Assembly: GCA_945861435.1 (NCBI GenBank)
Contig: CAMAUX010000048.1
Coordinates: 1 to 42,580 of the forward strand
Source: Chthoniobacter flavus
GTDB taxonomy: Bacteria > Verrucomicrobiota > Verrucomicrobiia > Chthoniobacterales > Chthoniobacteraceae
Length of the DNA: 42,580 nucleotides
Reading direction: 5' to 3'
The notes beneath the pieces were generated by a model, which was given only the letters and a program-made list of their open reading frames with translations, made no database searches and was not told the origin of the DNA. Both the position numbers and the translations under genes were made by a program. The stretch's first letter is position 1. Each line of letters starts with the position of its first letter. Shown piece by piece: positions 1 through 42,580 of the stretch.

Positions 1-116
1 ATCGCATAAAGAATCGCCCCCAGCGCATACACATCCGAACGCACATCCAGCTCCGCCACCATCCCCTGCGCCTGTTCCGGCGACATGTACTGCGGCGTCC
101 CCATCACCTCCCCCTC
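1..116. repeat. 116-bp exact terminal direct repeat, left copy
   Basis: Bases 1-116 are identical to 42465-42580 and codon phase is the same in both copies (the ATG of MGTPQYMSPEQ is at 104 and at 42568, minus strand). The repeat covers the kinase activation loop. This is the signature of either a circular contig with overlapping ends or a contig bounded by two identical stretches of paralogous kinase genes. Confidence 0.97.
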
Positions 117-1211
117 CATCGTCGCTCCATAATCCCCCGTATCCCGCAACGGCCCCGTCGCAGCCCCCTCCGACTCCTCCCGTCCCAGCACCTTGGCCAA
201 TCCCCAGTCCATCACCAGCACCTCGCCATACTCCCCCACCATGATGTTCTCCGGCTTCAAATCCCGATGCAGGATCCCCTTCGAATGCGCAAACGCCATC
301 GCATCGCACACCTTCCGAAAGACCGTCAGCAAAGCGCTCCGCGAATACTCGCGCATCACCGCCGCGTCGCCCTTACGAAGCGCGCTGAGCACCGCCTGCA
401 GCGTCCGCCCCTTGATCAACTTCATCGAGTAAAAGGGTCGCCCGACACCATCCGTCCCGATGTTATAAATCGGCACAATGTTCGGATGCGCGAGATGCGC
501 CAGCACCTTCGCCTCCTTAGCGAACCGTGGATCCATCCCACCCTGCGCGATACTACTCACCTTCACCGCCACCTGCCGTTCCAACTGCGGATCTTCCCCA
601 AAATAAATCTGCCCCATCCCGCCCCGCGCAATCTCGCGGACGAGGGTATATTTGCCGGTCAACGGAGCTTCGTTGTCAGCGACCGGAACAGTTCCAGAAG
701 CCACTCCGCGCCGCTCCAATCCACCAGCAGGACCCTGCGCAATGGTCACATCCACGCTCGCGCTTCCCGCATTCAACCGAGCCTGTGGAATGGTCACCTC
801 CGGATCCACGCCACCGCCGCTCACGGTGGGCGGACGTCGGGGGATCGTCACATCAAGATCTGATGCGGTCTCGGAAGCCACCCGCTCCACCACCAGCGTC
901 ACTGCGCCCACCTGCACGGAAGCCGGATAATCCACCTCCACGCGTCCCGAAATCGGATACCCGTTCACCAAAGTCCCCCCGGCGAGATCCTCCACCTGCA
1001 TCCGTTCACCCGCGATCCACACCCATGCATGCCGAGGCGCCACACCATCACCCTCCAAGCGCAGGACATCCCCCGCCTCCTCCGTCCCCAGAACAAACTG
1101 CGCTTCCCCGGATTCAACCCGGTTCAAAACCCCCTCAGGGCCATGCAGAGTGAGCTGCCATTGATGCACAACGCACGATGCTGCCAGAAGAAGAACTCCC
1201 GGCAATATCAT
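1..1211 (-). CDS. FHA domain - Ser/Thr protein kinase, N-terminal part (runs off left edge)
   Basis: Reading the minus strand from an ATG at 1211, an open frame runs without a stop to base 1 (about 403 codons). Residues ~20-105 look like an FHA phosphothreonine-binding domain (PRHAWVWI, then a DLAGGTLVNG turn). After a Pro/Val-rich linker a Hanks-type kinase starts near residue 195: Gly-loop ARGGMGQIYFG, ATP lysine K217 in VAVKV, catalytic HRDLKPEN with H315, and DWG instead of DFG in DWGLAKV, a variant I associate with kinases of the Planctomycetes/Verrucomicrobia group. All catalytic residues seen are intact, so an active kinase is expected. The activation loop (MGTPQYMSPEQAQ) lies in bases 1-116, which are duplicated in the same frame at the right end; the rest of the gene is probably the one at 40932-42580. 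No Shine-Dalgarno is obvious before the start. Confidence 0.9.
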   Translation of the reverse strand, partial: MILPGVLLLAASCVVHQWQLTLHGPEGVLNRVESGEAQFVLGTEEAGDVLRLEGDGVAPRHAWVWIAGERMQVEDLAGGTLVNGYPISGRVEVDYPASVQVGAVTLVVERVASETASDLDVTIPRRPPTVSGGGVDPEVTIPQARLNAGSASVDVTIAQGPAGGLERRGVASGTVPVADNEAPLTGKYTLVREIARGGMGQIYFGEDPQLERQVAVKVSSIAQGGMDPRFAKEAKVLAHLAHPNIVPIYNIGTDGVGRPFYSMKLIKGRTLQAVLSALRKGDAAVMREYSRSALLTVFRKVCDAMAFAHSKGILHRDLKPENIMVGEYGEVLVMDWGLAKVLGREESEGAATGPLRDTGDYGATMEGEVMGTPQYMSPEQAQGMVAELDVRSDVYALGAILYA

Positions 1212-1237
1212 TAGATAAGTGTGCGGCACCCATGCAG

Positions 1238-1539: not shown

Positions 1540-1920
1540 TTAAGCCTTCGCCTGCAGATTCACCAGCGACTTGGTCAACTCAACCAACTGCGCAGGCTTG
1601 AACGGCTTCGAAATATACCCGCTCACCTTGAGCGCATCGGCCGCTCCGAGCCTCTGCGCATCGGACTCCGCAGTCAGCATCACCACGGGAGTCCCGGCGA
1701 TTTCCGGAGTGCCCCGGATCTTCTCGAGGGTCTGAATCCCGTTCAACACGGGCATCGTGATATCCAGAAAAATAAGGTCCGGCTTCTCGCGCAACGCTGC
1801 CTCCACGCCCAGCGCACCGTCTGCCGCGGAAACGATCTGGCAGTCAAACGTCTCAAACGTTTTCGCCACAATCAAATGCACCATCTTGCTGTCGTCGATC
1901 GTCAGAATTTTCGGGCTCAT
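1540..1920 (-). CDS. CheY-like single-domain response regulator
   Basis: 126 aa, a complete receiver domain and nothing else. The acidic pocket is D9 and D10 (ILTIDDS), phosphoacceptor D53 in FLDITMP, the switch threonine T83 (MLTAES) and lysine K105 (ISKPF), so it should accept a phosphoryl group normally. It lacks an output domain and would signal by protein contact, as CheY does. Its ATG lies 12 bp after the stop of the HDOD-CheX gene, so the two are very likely co-transcribed; a CheX-type phosphatase next to a CheY suggests that this protein is its substrate. No histidine kinase is in the window. Similar receivers also serve type IV pilus or other non-flagellar pathways, which cannot be told apart here. 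Confidence 0.92.
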   Translation of the reverse strand: MSPKILTIDDSKMVHLIVAKTFETFDCQIVSAADGALGVEAALREKPDLIFLDITMPVLNGIQTLEKIRGTPEIAGTPVVMLTAESDAQRLGAADALKVSGYISKPFKPAQLVELTKSLVNLQAKA

Positions 1921-1932
1921 AAAATGTCAGTC

Positions 1933-2631
1933 TTAGGCAGAAACAGGCGTGATCACCAAGTCCAAGAAAACGGGCAGGCCATCCGTCAAAAACGCCATCA
2001 ACTGGTGATGCTGATCCTCCCCCACTTCCGGCTTGAATCCCATGCGCCGCACAATCGAAGGAACACTCAGGTCGCAGTTCAGCCCCGCATCGCACAGGTT
2101 GCTCTTAAAATTCCCCGCCACGATGTTCAGCAACTCCCCCACCACGTCGCCCAGCATCTCGGTTGGATCCTCGGGCACCGATTCCTCCCCGAGAAAGCGC
2201 CCGATCATCCACGCACCACACGTCGCCGGCACCCGCAGGAACACCTGCCCGGATGCACGACCGCTGAAACGGATGCTCCCCAGGATCTCCTCCACATGCT
2301 CGAAGAGCTCCTCCCGCTTCTCCAGCGGCGCATTCAGCATCGTCGAAAAAGTCTTCGTGACCGCGTTCATCAGGAGCTCGCTCATCACCACCAGCGTGAT
2401 CGCTGTCACCCCCAGCCGCATCACCGCCTGCTCCACCTCCATCTCCACATTCCGCTTCCGCTGCGCCACCGCAATCACCTGCGCACTCAACGCCGCGTCC
2501 GCCTTGATCAACGCCGCAATCTCGTCCGCATTCTGCGCAAACCCGCCTTGGATCAACTTTCCAAGCCTCTGAACATTTCCGGGCAGCGGTGCGAGTTGGA
2601 ACTTCTGGATCAGTTTGTCAGTGGGATTCAT
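1933..2631 (-). CDS. HDOD-like domain fused to a CheX-type phosphatase domain
   Basis: 232 aa. Residues ~1-100 resemble the first half of an HDOD signalling domain: LPGNVQRLGKL, then ALIKADAALSAQVI and EQAVMRLGVTAITLVVM match the usual order of HDOD helices, but the region is shorter than a full ~200-residue HDOD domain. Residues ~105-232 resemble CheX: GELLNIVAGN carries the E-x-x-N signature (E166, N169) that CheX/CheC phosphatases use to dephosphorylate CheY-P. It precedes a CheY-like receiver by 12 bp on the same strand. The likely role is to read an unknown input through the HDOD part and switch off the neighbouring receiver. Fold assignments are by eye; the CheX motif is the stronger of the two. 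Confidence 0.75.
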   Translation of the reverse strand: MNPTDKLIQKFQLAPLPGNVQRLGKLIQGGFAQNADEIAALIKADAALSAQVIAVAQRKRNVEMEVEQAVMRLGVTAITLVVMSELLMNAVTKTFSTMLNAPLEKREELFEHVEEILGSIRFSGRASGQVFLRVPATCGAWMIGRFLGEESVPEDPTEMLGDVVGELLNIVAGNFKSNLCDAGLNCDLSVPSIVRRMGFKPEVGEDQHHQLMAFLTDGLPVFLDLVITPVSA

Positions 2632-2840: not shown

Positions 2841-3530
2841 TCAGGGCAGCAGCAACACCGTCAACTTCTTCGGCCCGTGCGCCCCCAGCACAAGGATCCG
2901 CTCAATATCCCCAGTCCGGCTCGGACCGCTGATAAACGAAAGAAAACTCGGCAACCCGCCCGGATACCGCTTCTCCACCCGCGCATAGGACTCCGCAAGA
3001 TCCGACACCATCTGCTCACGCCTCGCCACAACCACATGGTGATGCGGCAGCACGCTCAGCGCACGCCCCCCCGAACTCAGTGCGCTCACCATCACCGAAC
3101 CCGTCTGCGCCACCAGAGTCTCGCACTCTGTAATACCCGCATCGCAAGCCTCCAAGGCGTCCGGATCATAACCCGCACCCACCTTCAGCAGCTCAAGCCC
3201 AGGCACGGAGGAGAGGTGCGGCACGACCCCCTCGTTGAGCGCGCCCGCATGCCACGCAAGCCTCTTCCACCCGTTCTCCGCAGCCAGCTTTGCCAAATGC
3301 GCAGCCGCCACCGCCACATCCGCGCATTCCAAAAATTCCGTCTTCAACACCTCCGACTGCCGCGCAAAAAGCACCACCTGTTCCCCGATGGCTTCGCCCA
3401 CGGGCGGCAGCCATGCACGAAACGGCGCACTGCTCGTGGCCTTCACTCCGACAGGCTCGTCATGGTGCGGCGCAGAAAGCACCAACGCCTCCCGAATCCG
3501 CGCCAACACTTTTTCCCGATCACCCTTCAT
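2841..3530 (-). CDS. lutC: LutC/YkgG-type lactate utilisation protein
   Basis: 229 aa from the ATG at 3530, which overlaps the lutB stop (ATGA); an ORF start nine codons earlier would overlap lutB further and is less likely. The protein is a single LUD domain, with the family's late pattern of a GSVM stretch followed by ALSSGGRALSVLPHHHVVV and a Gly-rich end near FISGPSRTGDIE. With LutA and LutB it forms the iron-sulfur L-lactate oxidase of the B. subtilis Lut type that converts lactate to pyruvate in the cytoplasm. It is last in the nagZ-lutA-lutB-lutC run. 209 bp separate it from the HDOD-CheX gene upstream of the next cluster, with nothing recognisable in the gap. Confidence 0.9.
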   Translation of the reverse strand: MKGDREKVLARIREALVLSAPHHDEPVGVKATSSAPFRAWLPPVGEAIGEQVVLFARQSEVLKTEFLECADVAVAAAHLAKLAAENGWKRLAWHAGALNEGVVPHLSSVPGLELLKVGAGYDPDALEACDAGITECETLVAQTGSVMVSALSSGGRALSVLPHHHVVVARREQMVSDLAESYARVEKRYPGGLPSFLSFISGPSRTGDIERILVLGAHGPKKLTVLLLP

Positions 3531-4933
3531 GACTTCTTCGCCTTCCGTTTCTTCCACCAGTCGTGGAACGACTCGCCGGCCACCTCCGGGAACTCACGCG
3601 ACTTCGTCCATGCACGGACGGGATCGAACACGCCACCGAGCACCAGCGGATGCAGCTTCTGCGCAAAGGGCGCAAGCTTCGTAGCGATCCGCAGCAGCCA
3701 CGGACGCGTCATGGTCTGCACATATCCAAACCACACGATCCGCTCCCACCACACGGGCTTCTGCGCCGCCGCATTGCGCCGATTGCGCAGGAGGTGATGG
3801 TGGATGTCGATTTTCACCGGGCACGTCTCCGTGCACGCCCCGCAGAGCGAGGACGCACCGCTCAGATGCTTCCAATCCTGCAGCCCCCGGAAATGCGGCG
3901 TGATCACTGAACCAATCGGCCCCTGGTACGTGGTCCCATACGCATGCCCGCCGATGTTCTTGAAAATCGGGCACACGTTCAGACACGCGCCGCAACGGAT
4001 GCAGTGAAGCGCATCGCGCTGCTCCGGATCCGCCAAAAGCCGCGTGCGATGATTATCCAGCAGCACCACGTGAAACTCCTCCGGCCCGTCGATCTCGCCC
4101 GGCTGCCGCGGCCCGCCGTACATCGAGTTGTAACAGGTCAGATGCTGCCCTGTCCCCGCCGTCGCCAGCATCGGAAGAAACAGCGCAAGGTCCTCCATCC
4201 GCGGCAGGATCTTCTCAATGCCAATAAGCGCCACGTGGATCTTCGGCATCGCAGTGGTCAGCCGCGCGTTGCCCTCGTTCTCCGTGATCGAGATCACCCC
4301 GCGGTCCGCGACAATGAAGTTGCCCCCCGAAATCCCCATGTCCGCCTTCAGGTACTGCCTCCGCAAAAACCGTCGCGCAATCTGCGTGAGCTCCTCCGGC
4401 GAATCGGTCGGCGCCGTGCCCAGCTCCTTCTCGAAAAGCGCACTGATCTCCCCCCGCTTCAAGTGCATGCACGGAAACACGAAGTGATACGGCGGCTCCT
4501 TCTTGAGCTGCTGGATAAACTCCCCAAGGTCGCTCTCCACCACCTCGTACCCCTCCTTCTCCAGCGCTGCATTGAGGTGAATCTCCTCGCTCGTCATCGC
4601 CTTGCTTTTGACGATCGACTTCACCCCGCGATCCCGCGCCAGCCCAAGGATGTACTCCCGCGCCTGCGCCGCATTGCTCGCCCAATACACCTTCCCGCCA
4701 CGCGCCGTGAACTTCTCCTCAAACTCCTGCAGATAACGATCAAGGTGGTTCACCCCCTCGTACTTGATCGCCGACGCCGCGTTGCGCGCCCGCTGCCAGT
4801 CCGTGAACGTCGCCTTCGTCTCGTCCCGCTTCACCTCGTATCCCCGCAGCGCCTTGCGCACAAACGCGCGCCGAGGCACGTCCGCTGTCGTGCGTGCCGT
4901 GTCACTTTGAAACTGATCGAGGATCTGGCTCAT
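3527..4933 (-). CDS. lutB: LutB-type iron-sulfur lactate utilisation protein
   Basis: 468 aa from ATG 4933. I prefer this start over 4969 because it follows the lutA stop by 10 bp instead of overlapping it and begins MSQILDQF. The N-terminal two thirds is a LUD domain (SKAMTSEEIHLN, GISGGNFIVADRG, EGNARL). The C-terminal part has two [4Fe-4S] motifs, CIRCGACLNVCP and CGACTETCP, followed by a short basic tail. This is the expected LutB architecture and length. It should carry electrons within the LutABC complex. The next gene, lutC, overlaps its stop by four bases, a sign of translational coupling. Confidence 0.95.
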   Translation of the reverse strand: MSQILDQFQSDTARTTADVPRRAFVRKALRGYEVKRDETKATFTDWQRARNAASAIKYEGVNHLDRYLQEFEEKFTARGGKVYWASNAAQAREYILGLARDRGVKSIVKSKAMTSEEIHLNAALEKEGYEVVESDLGEFIQQLKKEPPYHFVFPCMHLKRGEISALFEKELGTAPTDSPEELTQIARRFLRRQYLKADMGISGGNFIVADRGVISITENEGNARLTTAMPKIHVALIGIEKILPRMEDLALFLPMLATAGTGQHLTCYNSMYGGPRQPGEIDGPEEFHVVLLDNHRTRLLADPEQRDALHCIRCGACLNVCPIFKNIGGHAYGTTYQGPIGSVITPHFRGLQDWKHLSGASSLCGACTETCPVKIDIHHHLLRNRRNAAAQKPVWWERIVWFGYVQTMTRPWLLRIATKLAPFAQKLHPLVLGGVFDPVRAWTKSREFPEVAGESFHDWWKKRKAKKS

Positions 4934-4943
4934 GAGGTCGTCT

Positions 4944-5663
4944 TCAACGCGAAGCGAGAATCTCCGCAAGGTGCAGGCTCTTGATGGTCCGCGGACTGTT
5001 GCGCCCCAGCCAGCCTTGGATCTGCATGAGGCAGCTCGAGTCGTTGCTCACCACGTACTCCGCTCCGGTCTCCAACACCGACTGGCACTTCACCTCCGCC
5101 ATCGCCGTCGAAATCTCCGGATACTTCACCGCAAACATCCCCCCAAACCCGCAGCAGCTCTGGTTCTCGCTCATCTCCACCAACTCCAACCCGCGCACCG
5201 CTCGCAACAACTCCCGCGGCTCCTGCTCGGTCCCCAATTCCCTCAGCCCGTGACAGCCGTCATGAAAAGTCACCTTCCCCTCAAACCGCGCACCCACGTC
5301 CCGCACACCCAGCTTCTTCACGAGAAACTCCGAAAACTCGAACGTACGCGCCGACAACGACTTCGCATCCTCCAACTCAGGCTGTTCCGCGAACACCTGC
5401 GGGTAAAACACCTTGAACATCGCGCCGCACGAACCCGACGCCGACACCACCACCTCAGCGTCCCGGAAAAACTCCAACTGTCGGCGCGCAACCACCCGCG
5501 CCTCCTCCCAATATCCGGAATTGAAAGGCGGCTGCCCGCAGCACGTCTGCCCCTCGGGATACTCCACCGTGTGCCCCAACCCCTCGATCACCTCCACCAT
5601 CGCCCGCCCCACCTGCGGATAAAGGCTGTCGATAAAACACGGAATAAAAAGTGTGACTCGCAT
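4944..5663 (-). CDS. lutA: LutA-type (Fe-S)-binding lactate utilisation subunit
   Basis: 239 aa with the two CCG cysteine motifs of the glycolate/lactate oxidase Fe-S subunit family: TCCGQPPFNSGYW near residue 41 and SCCGFGGMFAVKYPEIS near residue 170, plus a conserved HDGCHGLRELG between them. The length matches LutA. The ATG at 5663 has a plausible gagg 9-10 bases upstream. It starts 21 bp after the nagZ stop and is followed by lutB after 10 bp, so nagZ and lutABC look like one transcription unit. No lactate permease (LctP/LldP) lies in the window. Confidence 0.94.
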   Translation of the reverse strand: MRVTLFIPCFIDSLYPQVGRAMVEVIEGLGHTVEYPEGQTCCGQPPFNSGYWEEARVVARRQLEFFRDAEVVVSASGSCGAMFKVFYPQVFAEQPELEDAKSLSARTFEFSEFLVKKLGVRDVGARFEGKVTFHDGCHGLRELGTEQEPRELLRAVRGLELVEMSENQSCCGFGGMFAVKYPEISTAMAEVKCQSVLETGAEYVVSNDSSCLMQIQGWLGRNSPRTIKSLHLAEILASR

Positions 5664-6908: not shown

Positions 6909-8120
6909 ATGCGCTCCCACCTCCGCACACTGCTCCTGCTCACGTTCACTCTCCTGCTGCTCGGCGCCTCCCAACCCGCTCCAGCGCTGGAACTCGGGAT
7001 CGACCGCCTCCAAGCCCTCGACTTCGCACCCCTCGCCGGCAAACGCGTCGGCCTCATCACCAACCAAACCGGCGTCGACTCGAGCCTGCGCAAAACGCGC
7101 GTGATTCTGCACAACTCCAAAAAGGTCAACCTCGTCGCCCTCTTCTCTCCCGAACACGGCCTCGACGGCACGGAGCTGGCCGGCAAATACGTCGCCACAC
7201 GCAAGGACTCCGTCACCGGTCTCACGGTCCATTCCCTCTACGGCCCCACGCGCAAACCCTCCCCTCAAATGCTCAAGGGAATCGACGTCCTCGTCTTCGA
7301 CATGCAGGACATCGGCAGCCGCAGCTACACCTACATCTCCACCATGGCGCGCTGCATGGAAGCCGCAGGCGAGACCGGTGTCGAATTCCTCGTCCTCGAC
7401 CGCCCCAACCCCCTCGGCGGCCTCCGCATCGAAGGCCCCCCCGTCGAGCCCCAGTGGATCTCCTTCGTCGGCCAGCTCCCCGTCCCCTATGTCCACGGCA
7501 TGACCGTCGGCGAACTCGCCCTCATGACCAACGCCTCCGGTTGGACCACCGCAAAGTGCAAACTCAACGTCCTCAAAATGCGCGGCTGGCAGCGCTCCAT
7601 GACCTGGCCCGACACCGGCCTCCGATGGGTCCAGACCTCCCCCAACATCCCCCGCGCCATGTCCCCCTTCTACTACGTCGCCACGGGCCTCGCCGGCGAA
7701 CTCGCCGGCCTCGACAACGGCGCCGGTGGCCCCACCCCCTTCGAAATCTTCTCCTCACGCGGAGTCGACGCCGACCAGTTCGCCGCCTATCTCCGCAAAC
7801 AGGGCTTCTCCGGCGTCGAATTCACCCCCTACCGCTCCGCTCCATGGCAGGGCGTGCGCCTCAAAATCGACCCGCACTGCTCGGCAAACCTCACCGCCCT
7901 CGGCATCTTCATGCTCGCCGAAAGCAACCGCCTCTCCCGTCCCAGCCTCTTCGCACGCTCCTCCGGCGAAAAGCTCGACCTCTTCTACAAATGCTACGGA
8001 AGCAAGTCCGCACGCACCCAACTCGAAGCTTCCGTGCCTCCCTCAAAAATCGTCGCGGGATGGAAGGACAACGTCACACGCTTCGAATCCGCCCGGCGGC
8101 CTTACCTCATCTACCCTTGA
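6909..8120 (+). CDS. namZ: Exported exo-beta-N-acetylmuramidase, NamZ/DUF1343 family
   Basis: 403 aa from the ATG at 6909. The frame is open further upstream to 6480, but that part is antisense to nagZ, whereas 6909 begins a signal peptide (RSHLRTLLLLTFTLLLLGAS, then APALELG). DUF1343/NamZ signatures are visible: LITNQTGVD, LFSPEHGLDG with a conserved Glu and His, VFDMQDIGSRSYTY, and FLVLDRPNPLGG. NamZ frees MurNAc from the non-reducing end of peptidoglycan fragments, complementing NagZ, which is encoded divergently 123 bp away; in B. subtilis the two genes are also neighbours. The signal peptide puts the enzyme outside the cytoplasm. nadD follows after 19 bp. Confidence 0.93.
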   Translation: MRSHLRTLLLLTFTLLLLGASQPAPALELGIDRLQALDFAPLAGKRVGLITNQTGVDSSLRKTRVILHNSKKVNLVALFSPEHGLDGTELAGKYVATRKDSVTGLTVHSLYGPTRKPSPQMLKGIDVLVFDMQDIGSRSYTYISTMARCMEAAGETGVEFLVLDRPNPLGGLRIEGPPVEPQWISFVGQLPVPYVHGMTVGELALMTNASGWTTAKCKLNVLKMRGWQRSMTWPDTGLRWVQTSPNIPRAMSPFYYVATGLAGELAGLDNGAGGPTPFEIFSSRGVDADQFAAYLRKQGFSGVEFTPYRSAPWQGVRLKIDPHCSANLTALGIFMLAESNRLSRPSLFARSSGEKLDLFYKCYGSKSARTQLEASVPPSKIVAGWKDNVTRFESARRPYLIYP

Positions 8121-8139
8121 TCCCGGCACCTCCAGCGCC

Positions 8140-8736
8140 ATGAACCCAGCGAGCGAACCGAGCGCGCCACGCCGCATCGCCCTCTTTGGCGGTAGCTTCG
8201 ACCCCGTCCATCACGGACACCTCATCCTCGCAAGGGACGCACTCGAACAACTGCAACTCGACCTCGTCCTCTTCATCCCCGCGGCACACTCGCCCCATAA
8301 ACCCGACACCAACCCGGCCCCGGGCCATCTCCGCGCAGAGATGATCGCCGCCGCGATCGAAGGCGAACAAGGCTTCGCCCTCTGCCCGTTGGAACTCTCC
8401 CGCGAAGGCCCGAGTTACAGCATCGATACCGCGCACGCCCTCCGTGCCCTCCACCCAGACGCCGAACTCTTCTTCCTTCTCGGCGAAGACAATCTTCCCC
8501 TGCTCCACACATGGCGCCGTATCGACGAACTGCGCGCCGCCGTCCGCTTCGTCGTCTACGGTCGCGGCACCACCTCCCACGCCCACGACTTCCCTCGCCT
8601 CCAACGCCGCCTCGACCTCTCCGCCACAGAAATCCGCCAGCGGGTTGCACGCGGCGCCTCGATCCGGTATCTGATTCCGGATGCGGTTCAAAATCTCATC
8701 CACCGCCATCACCTCTACCGGAGCACGCATCATTAA
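8140..8736 (+). CDS. nadD: Nicotinate-nucleotide adenylyltransferase
   Basis: 198 aa from ATG 8140, 19 bp after namZ; the open frame continues upstream, but only as a shadow of namZ. The nucleotidyltransferase motif is FGGSFDPVHHGHL and the late motif is SATEIRQRVARG, both typical of NadD, which adenylates nicotinate mononucleotide to deamido-NAD. The next NAD step, nadE, is also in this window at 18477. The 3' end overlaps rsfS by 56 bases, and the nadD-rsfS order is common in bacteria. Confidence 0.95.
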   Translation: MNPASEPSAPRRIALFGGSFDPVHHGHLILARDALEQLQLDLVLFIPAAHSPHKPDTNPAPGHLRAEMIAAAIEGEQGFALCPLELSREGPSYSIDTAHALRALHPDAELFFLLGEDNLPLLHTWRRIDELRAAVRFVVYGRGTTSHAHDFPRLQRRLDLSATEIRQRVARGASIRYLIPDAVQNLIHRHHLYRSTHH

Positions 8737-9088
8737 CTCAGAACAGCTAGCCCAGACCATCGCACGCATCGCCGACGAGAAGAAGGCGGACGACATCCTT
8801 GTCATCGACCTGCGTGGCATCTCCACCTTCACGGATTTTTTCGTGATCTGCTCCGGCAACTCCGAGCCGCACCTCAAGGCCGTCGCCGCAGAACTCAGCG
8901 ACCGCCTCCGCACGGAACACCAGCTCCGCCCGTTGTCCATCGACGGCGTCCCCGGCAGCCAGTGGGTGGTGGCGGATTACATCGACGTCATCGTCCACAT
9001 CTTCACCTCCGAGAAGCGCAAGCTCTATAGCCTCGAGGACCTCTGGAGCGACGCGCCTCGCTCCACCTTCGTCTCCGCCGGCACCTAG
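8681..9088 (+). CDS. rsfS: Ribosomal silencing factor RsfS
   Basis: 135 aa as read from the ATG at 8681. Conserved core: ILVIDLRGISTFTDFFVIC, then GNSEPHLKAVAAEL, and a late WVVADYIDVIVHIF followed by YSLEDLWSDAP, matching RsfS/YbeB. It binds ribosomal protein uL14 and blocks subunit joining when nutrients are scarce. The 56-bp overlap with nadD is long; the first ~18 residues do not look like the family, so the real start may be a non-ATG codon near 8729-8732 (an ATT is available), but I see no better ATG or GTG. Confidence 0.93.
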   Translation: MRFKISSTAITSTGARIINSEQLAQTIARIADEKKADDILVIDLRGISTFTDFFVICSGNSEPHLKAVAAELSDRLRTEHQLRPLSIDGVPGSQWVVADYIDVIVHIFTSEKRKLYSLEDLWSDAPRSTFVSAGT

Positions 9089-9125
9089 GCTCCCAGCTCC
9101 AAAGGGAGCAAACCACCTCCGCCCC

Positions 9126-9683
9126 TTGCAAAACAACGCCACGGAAAGCGAGACGCCCGCAGAACGCGAGACCCGCGAGCAGGCGACTGCCGCACAGCTG
9201 CGGGAATCGCATCCGCGCAGCATGTTCAAGGCCGTGAGCTGGCGGATCATCGGCACCCTCGATACCATCGGCATCTCCTTCCTCTGGACGGGCCACGCAT
9301 CCAAGGCCCTCGCCATCGGAGGCTCTGAGGTCGTCACAAAGGTCCTCCTCTACTACATCCACGAAAGAGTCTGGGCCAAGGTGCCACTCGGCACCGTCCG
9401 CAAACACAATCCCTTCGCCAGCCCAGATCAGGCTTCCGATCAACCCCTGCGCGATTCCAACCTGCGCAGCTTCCTCAAGGCCATCAGCTGGCGCATCGTC
9501 GGAACCATCGACACCATTCTCGTCTCCTACTTCTGGACCCGAGACACCAACAAGGCTCTGATGATCGGCGCCACAGACGTCCTCACCAAGATCCTCCTCT
9601 ACTACCTCCACGAACGCGCATGGTCCCGGATCCCACTCGGAACCATCCGCAGAATCTTCCGATCCAAGGATACCGCGGCCTGA
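9126..9683 (+). CDS. Membrane protein with two tandem DUF2061 domains
   Basis: 185 aa from a TTG at 9126, the only start before a much later ATG. The protein is an internal duplication: residues ~33-95 (FKAVSWRIIGTLDTI ... YYIHERVWAKVPLG) are repeated at ~115-175 (LKAISWRIVGTIDTI ... YYLHERAWSRIPLG). Each copy fits DUF2061, a short two-helix membrane domain ending in an HER-W motif. Its function is not known; in some genomes DUF2061 genes neighbour sulfur assimilation genes, and none is adjacent here. It starts 37 bp after rsfS. Confidence 0.85.
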   Translation: MQNNATESETPAERETREQATAAQLRESHPRSMFKAVSWRIIGTLDTIGISFLWTGHASKALAIGGSEVVTKVLLYYIHERVWAKVPLGTVRKHNPFASPDQASDQPLRDSNLRSFLKAISWRIVGTIDTILVSYFWTRDTNKALMIGATDVLTKILLYYLHERAWSRIPLGTIRRIFRSKDTAA

Positions 9684-9767
9684 ACCCAAGCCCCCTCTCC
9701 TTCCAGACTCCACAGCCCATGAGCCATGAGCCATGCGGGCACGGGTCGCAATTGAAAGACCTTCCCC

Positions 9768-11615
9768 ATGCCACACCATCACCTCGCCGGCCTCGCTTGC
9801 CTCACCTCCCTGCTCGCGCTCGCGCTCATGCCCCTGCGAGCAGAACCGCCTGCGCTTCCCTCGCTCATCTCCCAATACGAGGCCGACCAGCATCTCCTCG
9901 AACGTCACCTCGCCCTCGCAGGCAACTCCGACTCCGCCCTCGCTCACCAGCGCGAACTCCTCCGCCGATGGGTCGCACGCATCACAGCCCTCCCCTTCGA
10001 TCAACTCCCCCACGACCAGCAGGTCGACGCCGTCCTCCTCCAAAACGAGCTCCAAGCCTCCCTCCTCCAACTCGACATCCGCGCCGAACGCCGCACGGAA
10101 CTCGCCCCGTGGCTCCCCTTTCAATCCCTCGTCGACAGCCTCACCGAGGCCCGCGTGCGCGGCGAACCCCTCGATCCAGAAAAGGCCGCATCCCTCCTCG
10201 CTCCAGCCCCAAAGGCCATCAAGGCCGCACGCGAAGCACTCAAGACCGCCAAGCAGAAGAAGGACGGAAAAACGGACGCGCCTCCACAATCCTCCGCCAC
10301 AACATCCTCGCCCAAGGAACCCGTCCCGGCTCTCGCGCTGCCCACCCCTCATCAGGCACTCCTCGCCTCCGAAGCCACTGAGGCCCTTGCTTCCAACCTC
10401 AAACGCTGGTTCGAAAACTACCAGGGATTCCTCCCCGACTTCGCATGGTGGGTCCGCCAGCCCCACGATGAAGCCGCCAAGGCTCTCGCCGATTACGCCA
10501 AATATCTGCGCGAGGAAATCGCCGGCATCAAAGCCCCATCCAAGGACAAGGAATCGTCCAGCCCAGACGCCGACGACGCAGACAACCCGCTCCTTGGAAA
10601 AGCCATCGGCGCTGACAACCTCCGGCGTCACCTCGCCCTCGAGTTCATCCCCTATTCCCCCTCCGAGCTCATCACCATCGCCGAGCGCGAATTCGCCTGG
10701 TGCGAGGAGCAGATGCGCGCCGCAGCGCAGGAAATGCAGCTCGGCGACGACTGGAAAAAAGCCCTCCAGCAGACCAAGCTCCAGCACGTCAAACCCGGCG
10801 AACAGGAAGCCTTCGTGCGCGACGAAGCACTGCGCGCCACCGCCTTCATCAAGCAACGCCAGCTCGTCACCGTCCCCCCCCAGTGCGAGCAGTGGTGGGG
10901 CACCCGGATGCTCCCACTCGCAGAACAACGCGACATCCCCTACGCCGCCTACTCCGGGCACGACATGCTCGTCGCCTTCGCCAGCGAGTCCATGAAGCAC
11001 GAGGACAAACTCATGTCCATGCGCGGCAACAACCGCCCCTTCACCCGCAACGTCGTCCCCCACGAACTCATCCCCGGTCACCACCTCCAGGGCTACATGG
11101 CCGCTCGCGAACGCCCATACCGCCGCCTCTTCAGCACCCCCTTCTTCGTCGAGGGCTGGTCCCTTTACTGGGAAATGCGCTTCTACGCGCTCCACTACCA
11201 GACCACTCCCGAAGACCGCATCGGCGCCCTCTTCTGGCGCATGCACCGCTGCGCACGCATCATCGTCACCCTCAAATTCCACCTCGGCCAGATGGAGCCC
11301 GAGCAGATGGTCGACTTCCTCATCGAGCGCGTCGGCCATGAACGCTTCGGCGCCACCAGCGAGGTCCGCCGCTTCATCCGTGGCAATTACGCCCCCCTCT
11401 ACCAGTGCGGCTACATGCTCGGCGGACTCCAACTCCTCGCCCTCCAGCGCGAACTCGTCGGCTCCGGCAAACTCAGCGAACAACAGTTCCACGACGCTCT
11501 CCTTAAGCTCGGCCCCATCCCGGTCGAACTCGCACGCGCAAGCCTTCTGCAGCAGCCCCTCTCCCCCGCGTTCAAGACCCAGTGGCGCTTCGACGCCCCC
11601 TCCAACACCCCGTAA
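9768..11615 (+). CDS. Exported DUF885-family putative metallopeptidase
   Basis: 615 aa with an N-terminal signal peptide (LAGLACLTSLLALALMPL, cleavage probably after RA). DUF885 features: the zinc-binding motif HELIPGHHLQ at residues ~432-441 (H-E-x-x-x-G-H-H), followed by FFVEGWSLYWEMRFY with the probable third ligand, and a C-terminal GNYAPLYQCGYMLGGLQ. A Lys/Gln/Ser/Pro-rich stretch around residues 160-190 looks like a disordered insertion. The family is peptidase-like; substrates are generally unknown. It is preceded by DUF2061 and followed by a small cysteine-rich gene; no functional link is obvious. Confidence 0.88.
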   Translation: MPHHHLAGLACLTSLLALALMPLRAEPPALPSLISQYEADQHLLERHLALAGNSDSALAHQRELLRRWVARITALPFDQLPHDQQVDAVLLQNELQASLLQLDIRAERRTELAPWLPFQSLVDSLTEARVRGEPLDPEKAASLLAPAPKAIKAAREALKTAKQKKDGKTDAPPQSSATTSSPKEPVPALALPTPHQALLASEATEALASNLKRWFENYQGFLPDFAWWVRQPHDEAAKALADYAKYLREEIAGIKAPSKDKESSSPDADDADNPLLGKAIGADNLRRHLALEFIPYSPSELITIAEREFAWCEEQMRAAAQEMQLGDDWKKALQQTKLQHVKPGEQEAFVRDEALRATAFIKQRQLVTVPPQCEQWWGTRMLPLAEQRDIPYAAYSGHDMLVAFASESMKHEDKLMSMRGNNRPFTRNVVPHELIPGHHLQGYMAARERPYRRLFSTPFFVEGWSLYWEMRFYALHYQTTPEDRIGALFWRMHRCARIIVTLKFHLGQMEPEQMVDFLIERVGHERFGATSEVRRFIRGNYAPLYQCGYMLGGLQLLALQRELVGSGKLSEQQFHDALLKLGPIPVELARASLLQQPLSPAFKTQWRFDAPSNTP

Positions 11616-11679
11616 CACCCACGCGCAGCCCGCAAAATCCTGCTGCACACCCCGCTCGCATGCGTGCTAGAATCCGGCC

Positions 11680-38904: not shown

Positions 38905-40416
38905 ATGGCGCGCATCCTCATCATCGACGACGATCCCGCGATGGTCTCGGTCATCTCCGACATCTGCCAGGAGAAAGGCCACCAGACCATCGCCTGCAAT
39001 TCCGGACAAAAGGCCCTCGAGGAACTCGCCACCCACGCCCCTCAACTCGTCATCACCGACCTCAAAATGGACAAGGTCGGCGGCCTCGAAATCCTCCGCC
39101 ACTGCCGCGAGATCCTCCCCCAGACCCCCGTCATCCTCATCACCGCCTACGCCAAGGTCGAAAGCGCCCTCGAGGCCATGAAACTCGGCGCCTACGACTA
39201 CATCACCAAACCCTTCAAAATCGACGCCCTCCTCCTCGCCGTCGAACGCGCCCTCGAAAACCACTCCCTCGTCCGCGAAAACCGGTCCCTCCGTCAGATC
39301 GTCCGCGAAAAGTACCGCTTCGAAAACATCATCGGCACCAGCCCTCGGATGCAGGAAATCTACGGCCTCATCGCCAAGATCGCCGACACCGACTCCACCG
39401 TCCTCATCCAAGGCGAAAGCGGCACCGGCAAGGAACTCGTCGCACGCGCCCTCCACTTCAACAGCCACCGCCAGCACCACCCCTTCGTCGCCATCAACTG
39501 CTCCGCTCTTCCCGAGAACCTCCTCGAAAGCGAACTCTTCGGCCACAAACGCGGCGCATTCACAGGCGCCGTTCAGGACAAAATCGGCCTCTTCGAAGAA
39601 GCCGAGCACGGCACCATCTTCCTGGATGAGGTCAACTCCATGGCCCAACCCCTCCAGACCAAACTCCTGCGCGTCCTCCAAGAACGCCAGATCCGCCGCG
39701 TCGGCGACACCAAGAGCTCCCCCATCAGCGTCCGCGTCCTCGCCGCCACCAACGAAGGCCTCCTCGAAAAAATCAAGGACGGCACTTTCCGCGAAGACCT
39801 CTACTACCGCCTCGCCGTCATCCCCCTCGAAATGCCCCCGCTCCGCGAGCGCACCGACGACATCCCCCTCCTCGTCCAACATTTCCTCCAAAAAAACGCC
39901 GCCCACTCCGCCTCCGAACCCAGAAAAATCGAGCCCTCAGCCGTCGAAGCCCTCCAAAAACACACCTGGCCGGGCAACGTGCGCGAACTCGAAAACGCCA
40001 TCGAACGCGCCTGCGCACTCTGCGACGACCACCTCATCCGCGTCCGCGATCTCCCCCCACAGGTCCTCCGCTCGGCCGAAAATCCCACGCCCCCACCGCG
40101 CCTCGCCGACCTCCCATCGCCAGCCGCTTCCCCCGCGCTGACGCTGACATCGCCCGCATCACCAGTATCGCCAGCAACCACCGCAACGTCCACGCACGGC
40201 ACCGAGCAACAAACCCTCCGGGAATTCCTCGCCACGCAACAACGCACCTTCCTCGAGCAAACCCTCCAGTCCCATCAACAGGACCTCGCCGCTGCAGCCG
40301 AAGCCCTCGGCCTTTCCGCCGCGGAACTCCGTCGCAAACTCGGCCTCGCCTCGCCAAGACGCACACAGGCGTCAAAGCCCGCAAGACCCGCCCGGAAAAA
40401 CGCCGCCGCCATCTGA
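38905..40416 (+). CDS. NtrC-family sigma-54-dependent response regulator
   Basis: 503 aa in three domains. Receiver (1-120): D8-D10 acid pair, phosphoacceptor D52, T80 and K102. AAA+ (about 140-375): Walker A GESGTGKE at 170-177, sigma-54 contact GAFTGA at 217-222, Walker B FLDE at 239-242, and an arginine-rich FREDLYYRL. The Ala/Pro/Thr linker (380-430) leads to a Fis-like end ([18 protein letters not shown]). Residues are all as in active NtrC-type activators. No partner histidine kinase is present in the window, and I found no convincing -24/-12 (TGGC-N8-TTGC) site nearby. Confidence 0.95.
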
Positions 40417-40931: not shown

Positions 40932-41720
40932 TCAGGGATCTGAACTCAGAGCCAGCCGGAACCCGTAGGCGATGTAGCTGTAGGTCGGGTAGCTGCTGTA
41001 CCGGAACCCCACCGCGCAGTACTCCGCGAAGCGGTTCCAGCTCCCGCCACGGAACACCCGGTTACCTGTTTTCTCATCCTGTCCATCCCACATCCATTCC
41101 CAGACGTTGCCTCCCAAATCGTAAAAACCCAAAGCATTCGGTTTGAATGAACCCACGGGCGCTGTCCCCAGAATCCCATCCACTCCCACTTTTTGAGGAT
41201 CCTCTTTCCCATCCACCCCCACCGCGTAATTCCCGTCATCCCAGTGCGGCGGGTAATAATCCCCCCACGGATATTTCGTCGGTCCCACCGCAGCCTCCCA
41301 CTCCGCATTCGTCGGCAGACGCCACTGCTTACCAGTCCTCGCGCTCAGCCAGTCGCAGAACTCCTTCGCTCGATTCCAACTCACACTCACCACGGGATGC
41401 TCGTCCGTCTGTGTCCAGTCTTTGGACGGCTGCTGCCAGTCGAGAAACCCTTCCGCCCTCAAATACAGCTTCCATTCTCCCACCGTACATTCCGTCTTAC
41501 TCATGAGCACCTGCGTTCCAGGCACCGGCAGCAGCTTCGCTTCCAAACGTTTCACCAGCTCGCCAATCACGCTCGGATCCTTGCGCGCCTGTCTCCATGC
41601 GAGCTCGACTTCTGCTCCCTCGCTCTTCGCTTTCGACGACAGTTCCGCCCCGTGCCGCTTCCAAAATCCTTCCCCAAGCACCTTCGCATACGCAATGGAC
41701 TCCGCCTGCCTCCCCCCTCC
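40932..41720 (-). CDS. FGE/SUMF1-like (sulfatase-modifying-factor fold) domain, 3' part of the kinase gene
   Basis: In a frame different by one base from the kinase part, this codes about 260 residues: a helical stretch (AYAKVLGEGFWKRHGAEL), then a C-type-lectin-like FGE-sulfatase domain with MSKTECTVGEWKLYL, the WRLPTNAEWEAAV motif, GGNVWEWMWDG and FRGGSWNRFAEYC. The two active-site cysteines of real formylglycine-generating enzymes are not there, since the terminal part reads SSYPTYSYIAYGFRLAL; it is likely a binding domain. The kinase frame at 41567-42580 runs into it at the C6 tract 41712-41717, where inserting one base restores one reading frame. Confidence 0.8.
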   Translation of the reverse strand, partial: GGGRQAESIAYAKVLGEGFWKRHGAELSSKAKSEGAEVELAWRQARKDPSVIGELVKRLEAKLLPVPGTQVLMSKTECTVGEWKLYLRAEGFLDWQQPSKDWTQTDEHPVVSVSWNRAKEFCDWLSARTGKQWRLPTNAEWEAAVGPTKYPWGDYYPPHWDDGNYAVGVDGKEDPQKVGVDGILGTAPVGSFKPNALGFYDLGGNVWEWMWDGQDEKTGNRVFRGGSWNRFAEYCAVGFRYSSYPTYSYIAYGFRLALSSDP

Positions 41721-42580
41721 AGCAGTGCCTCGTAAAGCCTCGCATGGGCTTTCTCCTCCCCCTCCTTCGCCTTCACCGCCAGCAACTCCCCAGTCAGGCG
41801 CAGGCTCGTCTCCACCCCGTCTTCCCCCGCGCATTGCCCGTACTCTTTCAACGCCTCCTCCCAGCGTCCCAGTAACTGCAGCACATTCCCACGGATCCGT
41901 CGGAACCCACCCTCTTCGGGCTGCAAATCCACCGCGTACGTCACCGATTTCAAGGCCTCCACGAATTCCCCGTCCCGAATCAACGCCTCAGCCTTCGACG
42001 CGGCCATCGGCGCCATTTCCCGCAAACTCTTGAGCGCCGCGCTCGCCCTCCTGCCCTCCGTCACCACCTTCACGGTGAACCCACTCACCACCAACACCAG
42101 CACCGCCGCCGACACCGCCAGCACACGGTTGCGACCCACCCACAACCGCGCCCGCGTCCACGCCCCTGCATCCTCCGCACTCGTCGCAAATCCATTCTGG
42201 TACGCCTCGATATCCGCCACCAACCCCTCCACTCCCGCATACCGCTTCTCACGCTGCGTCGCCATCGCCTTCATCGTCACCGATTGCAATGCCGCAGGCA
42301 CTTCCGAGCCCATCGCCGTTCCCTCGCCCACAACCACACCATCGTTTCCGCTCTTCTCCGCCTTCCCTCCGCGCCGCGTGATCATCGGACTAATCTGCCC
42401 GCTCCGCACCTTGCTCAGCACCTCATCCAGCGTCTTCCCATCAATGGGCGCGCGCAGCGTCAGGATCGCATAAAGAATCGCCCCCAGCGCATACACATCC
42501 GAACGCACATCCAGCTCCGCCACCATCCCCTGCGCCTGTTCCGGCGACATGTACTGCGGCGTCCCCATCACCTCCCCCTC
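41567..42580 (-). CDS. Ser/Thr protein kinase, C-terminal part with membrane helix and TPRs (runs off right edge)
   Basis: From the right edge the frame reads MGTPQYMSPEQAQ, then DVRSDVYALGAILYAIL of kinase subdomains VIII-IX, an RYAGVEGLVADIEAYQNG end of the kinase, a single membrane helix (LAVSAAVLVLVVSGFTV) and a TPR-like region (ALKSVTYAVDLQP, LLGRWEEALKEYGQ). It fits the kinase half at 1-1211 with no gap in frame. The frame continues to a stop at 41567 but diverges from any family after 41712-41717; the FGE domain resumes in the next frame. The true product is probably FHA-kinase-TM-TPR-FGE. Confidence 0.87.
   Translation of the reverse strand, partial: EGEVMGTPQYMSPEQAQGMVAELDVRSDVYALGAILYAILTLRAPIDGKTLDEVLSKVRSGQISPMITRRGGKAEKSGNDGVVVGEGTAMGSEVPAALQSVTMKAMATQREKRYAGVEGLVADIEAYQNGFATSAEDAGAWTRARLWVGRNRVLAVSAAVLVLVVSGFTVKVVTEGRRASAALKSLREMAPMAASKAEALIRDGEFVEALKSVTYAVDLQPEEGGFRRIRGNVLQLLGRWEEALKEYGQCAGEDGVETSLRLTGELLAVKAKEGEEKAHARLYEALLEGGGRRSPLRMRRCLGKDFGSGTGRNCRRKRRAREQKSSSHGDRRARIRA
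41712..41717. other. C6 tract at which the kinase-FGE reading frame shifts
   Basis: Minus-strand frames either side join only if one G is added to this run (six to seven). With that base the joined gene is 2745 nt across the contig ends, 915 codons with stop. Candidates are a sequencing or assembly error, a real mutation, or slippage (phase variation or programmed frameshift). Confidence 0.75.
42465..42580. repeat. 116-bp exact terminal direct repeat, right copy
   Basis: Identical to bases 1-116 over the full 116 bp. Base 42464 (g) lies just left of the copy; the left copy has nothing before it. Removing one copy gives a 42,464-bp circle. Confidence 0.97.

Follow-up and report, generated by a model that had tools for sequence, protein, structure and literature searches.

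The window, by which we mean the whole stretch of 42,580 nucleotides analysed here, carries near its start a gene that joins the first half of an HDOD domain to a CheX domain, followed by a gene for a CheY-like receiver and by a truncated protein kinase gene. The features of this region are the following:

1933..2631, reverse strand: HDOD(half)-CheX fusion gene, 232 aa (list of open reading frames and Pfam)
2344..2595, reverse strand: N-terminal HDOD half, aa 13-96 (Pfam, profile positions 1-87 of 196; PDB profile matches; VIA-align list)
2023..2283, reverse strand: CheX domain, aa 117-203 (Pfam)
2134..2136, reverse strand: codon of E166, first residue of the ExxN motif, invariant in 30/30 aligned rows
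2125..2127, reverse strand: codon of N169, second residue of the ExxN motif, in 29/30 aligned rows, T in locus L087
1540..1920, reverse strand: CheY-like stand-alone receiver, 126 aa (Response_reg, 6e-23, above the curated cut-off)
1762..1764, reverse strand: codon of receiver D53, predicted phosphorylation site, invariant in 31 rows
3..1229, reverse strand: Ser/Thr protein kinase, truncated at the contig end, 310 bp past the receiver (Pfam)

Upstream of the fusion lie lactate-utilisation-type genes (2841-5663, reverse strand; two LUD proteins and one CCG protein), the first and last of which are matched, among the fusion loci, in L059 only. Further along, an 881-aa open reading frame (9003-11648, reverse strand) has no Pfam match at E 0.01 and faces long open reading frames on the opposite strand, so that it may not be a gene.

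Domains, active site and predicted fold

A first-pass annotation of this DNA had proposed that an HDOD-like half is joined to a CheX-like domain and that a CheY-like receiver follows 12 bp downstream. Both proposals are borne out. The placement of the two genes is exact (fusion 2631-1933, receiver 1920-1540), and the profile searches suggested as a check are significant for HDOD, CheX and CheC alike: the fusion matches Pfam CheX (PF13690; E = 4.8e-16, 59.1 bits versus a curated cut-off of 27), Pfam HDOD (PF08668; E = 3.2e-6, 27.2 bits versus a cut-off of 22.9) and Pfam CheC (E = 7.1e-6, above the curated cut-off). It scores 26.1 bits with the NCBIfam equivalog CheX_Thtogales (NF041094), below the cut-off of 280, a miss that rules out that equivalog alone, the model being named for Thermotogales CheX. 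The HDOD assignment stands with the qualification that only profile positions 1-87 of 196 are present, which is possibly what was meant by a half; the second half (positions 88-196) is missing, and Pfam recognises no complete domain of ~196 positions. The label of input-type domain is not supported: HDOD stands for HD-related output domain, described in an excerpt of PMC11004494 as of unknown function and as affecting motility in several bacteria, and only its first half is found here.

Furthermore, a profile of 30 homologues compared with solved structures assigns the two parts separately. The C-terminal part matches the CheX-type structures 3iic (3.9e-15), 6vpw (8.1e-15) and 3h2d (1.4e-14), and the N-terminal part matches the HDOD structures 3m1t (4.1e-10), 3i7a (2.9e-9) and 1vqr/Cj0248 (4.8e-8), as well as 3mem, 9qzk (SadB), 3ljx, 3p3q and 3hc1. 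The HDOD chains are matched by the first 100 positions only of the fusion-family profile.

The AlphaFold model of the fusion (30 homologues; pLDDT 85.1, pTM 0.80) contains a single helix (aa 66-98) that links the HDOD lobe with the first CheX helix in one continuous run, leaving no flexible linker, and the CheX fold, as judged by structure, extends over aa ~75-230. Eight CheX or CheC-like entries align to the model with Z scores of 18.4-19.6 over 144-149 residues; for the CheX part, the alignments are Z 19.6 (147 residues, 2.2 A) with 6vpw_B and Z 18.6 (144 residues, 2.3 A) with 3hzh_B, the CheX chain from the B. burgdorferi complex with CheY. The HDOD entries 3mem, 9qzk, 3i7a and 3hc1 give Z scores from 7.3 to 4.5 (VIA-align), with only 3hc1 (model residues 16-89) staying within the N-terminal part and the other ranges partly entering CheX, and no HDOD entry is among the 50 Foldseek matches listed for the model. 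Taken alone, the structural similarity to HDOD is weak, and the lobe is better supported by the sequence profile.

In CheX-type phosphatases, as set out in part of PMC3035606, an Asn serves to orient the water, with an acidic residue forming the bridge to the receiver lysine. The residues previously named for this motif, E166 and N169, are correct, and their loss among homologues is limited to rare exceptions (E166 in 30/30, N169 in 29/30). The alignment excludes five rows, namely L063 (in-frame TGA), L079 (runs off its contig), L088 (degenerate) and L089 and L104 (fragments); L063, L079, L089 and L104 retain both E and N, and L088 carries S for N169. Both halves of the fusion are under purifying selection: in 7 pairs, of which some have high dS, dN/dS lies at 0.05-0.20 in the HDOD half and at 0.08-0.26 in CheX. 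That the N-terminal part resembles HDOD by chance is ruled out by the HDOD structure matches, by this selection and by its presence across the fusion loci.

Paired receiver and distribution of the fusion

All phosphorylation residues are present in the receiver (D9, D10, D53, T83 and K105). Among the paired receivers of the homologous loci, D53, T83 and K105 are found in 31/31 aligned rows and D9/D10 in at least 90%. The pairing, as the first-pass annotation had it, is conserved: the receiver gene lies within 400 bp of the fusion and on the same strand in 28/32 loci. At L079 and L091 an HDOD gene stands between fusion and receiver, and at L086 the locus is cut by the contig start, 42 bp away. 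At L087 (1105-2205, forward strand) we found one open reading frame of 366 aa, with three Pfam matches, that combines receiver, half HDOD and CheX and has T in place of the catalytic N. This is possibly a receiver with a built-in phosphatase that has been weakened or lost; in its AlphaFold model the domains are good (pLDDT 86), and a pTM of 0.61 leaves their relative placement unfixed.

The distribution of the fusion was surveyed in 84,980 species genomes, in a scan confined to stretches with one of two conserved peptide patterns, which returned 64 loci. A profile of the HDOD lobe (window residues 13-82) matches the fusion open reading frame in 31 of these and in the window. It finds no match in any stand-alone CheX partner searched, nor in the CheX-matching open reading frames of L092-L121 other than L120 and L113 (deltaproteobacterial titles). 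All 31 fusion records from this pattern-limited scan are titled as Verrucomicrobiota groups or plain 'bacterium', some record titles being doubtful (for example Akkermansia muciniphila on apparent lake MAGs). In the window's own family, the fusion occurs in 14/40 genomes, and one of these copies has an in-frame TGA. Of 387 genomes drawn from the phylum (completeness at least 85), 51 match the fusion profile; among the matches listed, the window's own genome is the only one matched end to end (1-231), the others covering the CheX or the HDOD part, and genome G370 is matched at 14-161. At L063 (6382-7089, forward strand) the fusion gene is broken by one in-frame TGA, either a real defect or an assembly error, and the downstream receiver is intact.

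A quick tree was built from 78 CheX domains (30 fusion, 33 Verrucomicrobiota stand-alone and 15 deltaproteobacterial stand-alone rows), leaving out L063, L079, L088, L089, L104 and open reading frames outside ~140-300 aa. In this tree, of which 31/75 inner branches are below 80, all 30 fusion rows fall on one branch (SH-aLRT 99), separate from stand-alone CheX. Because the CheX parts form one branch apart from stand-alone CheX, the fusion probably arose once. A recent duplication of stand-alone CheX was rejected, the 30 fusion rows being a branch of their own.

Gene context and chemosensory clusters

Gene context was compared at 32 fusion loci, that is, the window and 31 loci from the genome scan. 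Context labels were assigned by phmmer similarity (E 1e-6) from seeds that had been identified by eye; Pfam confirmed the CheB, CheD, CheR, CheW, CheA and MCP seeds, the weakest MCP label (L066) and the HDOD genes of L041 and L082, the CheA2 seed is a contig-end fragment, and most single gene labels come from phmmer similarity only. We found that other chemosensory genes (cheA/W/B/R/D or MCP) lie on the fetched stretch at 26/32 loci, those without being the window, L060, L063, L065, L086 and L087. Within 2 kb of the fusion, a stand-alone CheX is found at 27/32 loci, and a separate HDOD gene is present in half of the loci (16/32). The gene order is fusion-CheY-CheX in L059-L062 and L064-L067 and CheX-CheY-fusion in most other loci, with L076 and L074 arranged as CheD-HDOD-CheB-CheX-CheY-fusion-CheA. 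HDOD, CheX and CheY genes cluster together even where unfused. This survey of fusions and their neighbours, which the first-pass annotation had called for, places the pair in or beside chemosensory clusters at those 26 loci. Its picture of a lone, kinase-free pair is not what the relatives show, and the window's own genome holds a matching, CheA-bearing cluster on contig C55.

On the window contig itself (C48), which ends 1.5 kb past the receiver gene, there are no chemosensory genes and no histidine kinase near the pair, with 0/28 HATPase_c matches of the genome on this contig. The earlier statement that no kinase is nearby is thus right for histidine kinases; the next open reading frame before the contig ends is the Ser/Thr kinase. 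This Ser/Thr kinase has a weak FHA-like match (Yop-YscD_cpl, below cut-off), and it was set aside as the receiver's kinase, a seed search giving no match in other fusion loci. Ser/Thr kinases are not expected to phosphorylate a receiver aspartate. Near the other contig end, a partial open reading frame (41567-42571, reverse strand) has Ser/Thr-kinase-like and TPR matches, all below cut-off, and at 38905-40416 (forward strand) an NtrC-type sigma-54 response regulator is encoded, although this contig has no HATPase_c match.

Elsewhere in the genome, CheW and MCP matches lie on contigs C1, C17 and C55, and a FliG match is present. The C55 cluster comprises CheA (Hpt, dimerisation, HATPase and two CheW stretches), CheW, a PAS-domain MCP, CheY, CheB, CheR and a second CheX, the identities of CheA, CheB, CheR, CheY, MCP and CheX being confirmed by Pfam. 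Its nearest counterparts are found next to the pair in L059, L061, L062 and L067. Its CheA reaches 72% to L062, its MCP 80% to L062, 75% to L061, 71% to L059 and 82% to a fragment in L067, its CheB 64% to L059 and 61% to L067, and its CheR 69% to both L059 and L067; in the quick tree, the C55 CheX falls together with the partner CheX of L059, L062 and L067. The closest named relative, L059, shares with the window the lut genes upstream of the fusion; its che cluster is found ~2-7 kb downstream of the partner CheX. Because of the similarity of C55 to these fusion-side clusters and of the L059 arrangement, the window pair appears to have been displaced from the C55 pathway.

The assignment to C55 is not exclusive, however: the genome's C1 cluster is nearer to Limisphaerales-type clusters and to that of L068 (CheA 60%), and L068 shares a 10-row tree branch with the window's fusion protein. 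Since the fusion also occurs in such C1-like clusters (L068, Limisphaerales-type), the CheA of C1 is a second candidate kinase, in a comparison that covered C55 and C1.

Proposed role and alternatives

We propose, with moderate confidence, that the fusion is an accessory CheY-P phosphatase of a CheA/CheW/MCP pathway, most likely with C55 as the partner, and that its half HDOD is a non-catalytic docking or regulatory lobe. Setting out from the observed domains, motif, conservation, gene context and C55 similarity, we infer the phosphatase activity, the choice of substrate and kinase, and the role of the lobe. A CheA, most likely that of C55, would phosphorylate the window receiver in trans, and the CheX domain of the fusion would dock on this receiver, encoded beside it. 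E166 would pair with receiver K105 and N169 would position the water for hydrolysis of phospho-D53, such that dephosphorylation of the receiver would switch the CheA signal off. The phosphorylation and dephosphorylation steps are proposed because of gene context and known chemistry; we infer the remaining step, in which the HDOD lobe would dock or regulate without catalysis. Several findings are counterpoints to this proposal, besides the resemblance of the L068 and Limisphaerales-type clusters to C1. N169 is replaced by T in the single-chain receiver-phosphatase of L087, which offers the best test of whether the two proteins are partners, and by S in the degenerate fragment L088. No chemosensory gene shares the window contig with the pair, and the C55 cluster holds another CheX and another CheY, so that the pairing with the substrate could be crossed.

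The presence of a second CheX also bears on the idea that the fusion mainly binds, anchoring or buffering the receiver as a scaffold, with its phosphatase activity minor or lost and catalysis left to the other CheX. This is unlikely in our judgement: it would explain the distinct second CheX within 2 kb at 27/32 loci, the loss of N169 in L087 and the ExxN string in 48/48 stand-alone CheX rows (a string pattern alone, its position in the protein unchecked), but ExxN is retained in 29/30 fusion rows and is complete in the window protein, and purifying selection acts on the CheX part (dN/dS 0.08-0.26 in 7 pairs). Still less probable is that the pair forms an autonomous unit with no cognate kinase, in which the HDOD lobe senses and sets the phosphatase and the receiver takes its phosphate from small phosphodonors or from unrelated kinases. 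The window contig, with 0 of 28 HATPase_c matches and no che gene, speaks for such a unit, but this contig stops 1.5 kb downstream, chemosensory genes are found at 26/32 loci and a matching CheA cluster lies in the same genome. Furthermore, fusion and CheA co-occur in the family, with CheA matches over cut-off in 13/14 genomes with the fusion versus 6/26 without it (Fisher p = 3e-5, relatedness ignored), the only fusion genome that has no CheA match being G438, which is 62% complete. As the main reading, the autonomous pair was set aside, the pairs of relatives lying within chemosensory clusters and the own genome having a match.

As for the N-terminal half, it is highly improbable that it is a functionless HDOD remnant carried by chance. 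Profile positions 88-196 are indeed missing, but the half HDOD is found in 32/32 fusion loci and in no stand-alone CheX open reading frame searched, its dN/dS is 0.05-0.20 in 7 pairs, and in the model its helix is continuous into CheX. A more specific role, which we hold tentatively as a doubtful but reasonable possibility, is that the lobe is a regulatory handle binding a separate full-length HDOD protein of the same locus (16/32), which would recruit or gate the phosphatase; a variant of this has the fusion forming a heterodimer with the second CheX. If true, the handle would give HDOD domains a defined job, namely setting the lifetime of CheY-P.

Returning to the accessory phosphatase that we favour, the fusion resembles the CheX phosphatases of Thermotoga maritima and Borrelia burgdorferi (PF13690) in fold (3hzh_B, Z 18.6; 1xko, Z 18.5), in ExxN and in the adjoining receiver gene; unlike these, it adds a half HDOD running into the first CheX helix and is usually one of two CheX genes per cluster. 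It shares the first domain half with HDOD proteins (Cj0248/1vqr, SadB/9qzk, Maqu_0641/3mem; PF08668), by profile and more weakly by structure, and differs from them in having no second half (88-196) and in being joined to a phosphatase domain. In Leptospirae, according to part of the text of PMC10782961, CheC/CheX domains are fused to CheA; there, as here, such a domain sits inside a larger chemosensory protein, whereas the partner is a kinase in that case and a half HDOD in ours. T. maritima FliY (CheC-FliN, 4hyn; Z 11.2) likewise has a CheC/CheX-type domain fused to another chemotaxis or motility module, the partner being a FliN domain (PDB molecule name), which the fusion does not have. The first-pass annotation had regarded the arrangement as not characterised, and we agree: in the available portions of the open-licence literature on HDOD, CheX/CheC, chemotaxis and Verrucomicrobiota CheX, there is no sign of a half-HDOD-CheX architecture and no paper combining HDOD with CheX, an absence which is not proof. 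An HDOD lobe on a phosphatase of known chemistry and substrate class turns the role of HDOD into a simple in-vitro question, and the survey reveals clusters in which a single receiver is accompanied by two different CheX-type proteins.

Other combinations of these domains were observed in the scanned loci. At L107 (Desulfosarcina widdelii; 7893-9365, forward strand), a protein of 490 aa combines two CheX stretches with a FliN domain at its C-terminus and so has a FliY-like layout made from CheX; by similarity search, open reading frames of L100, L103, L110, L111, L112, L116, L118, L119 and L121 resemble it in length and match, and L095 has a shorter one with two CheX stretches. Receivers adjacent to CheX with a weak C-terminal STAS match occur in L092 (4198-4941), L041 (7551-8678) and L090 (8468-9592), and many deltaproteobacterial loci have an HDOD gene nearby too.
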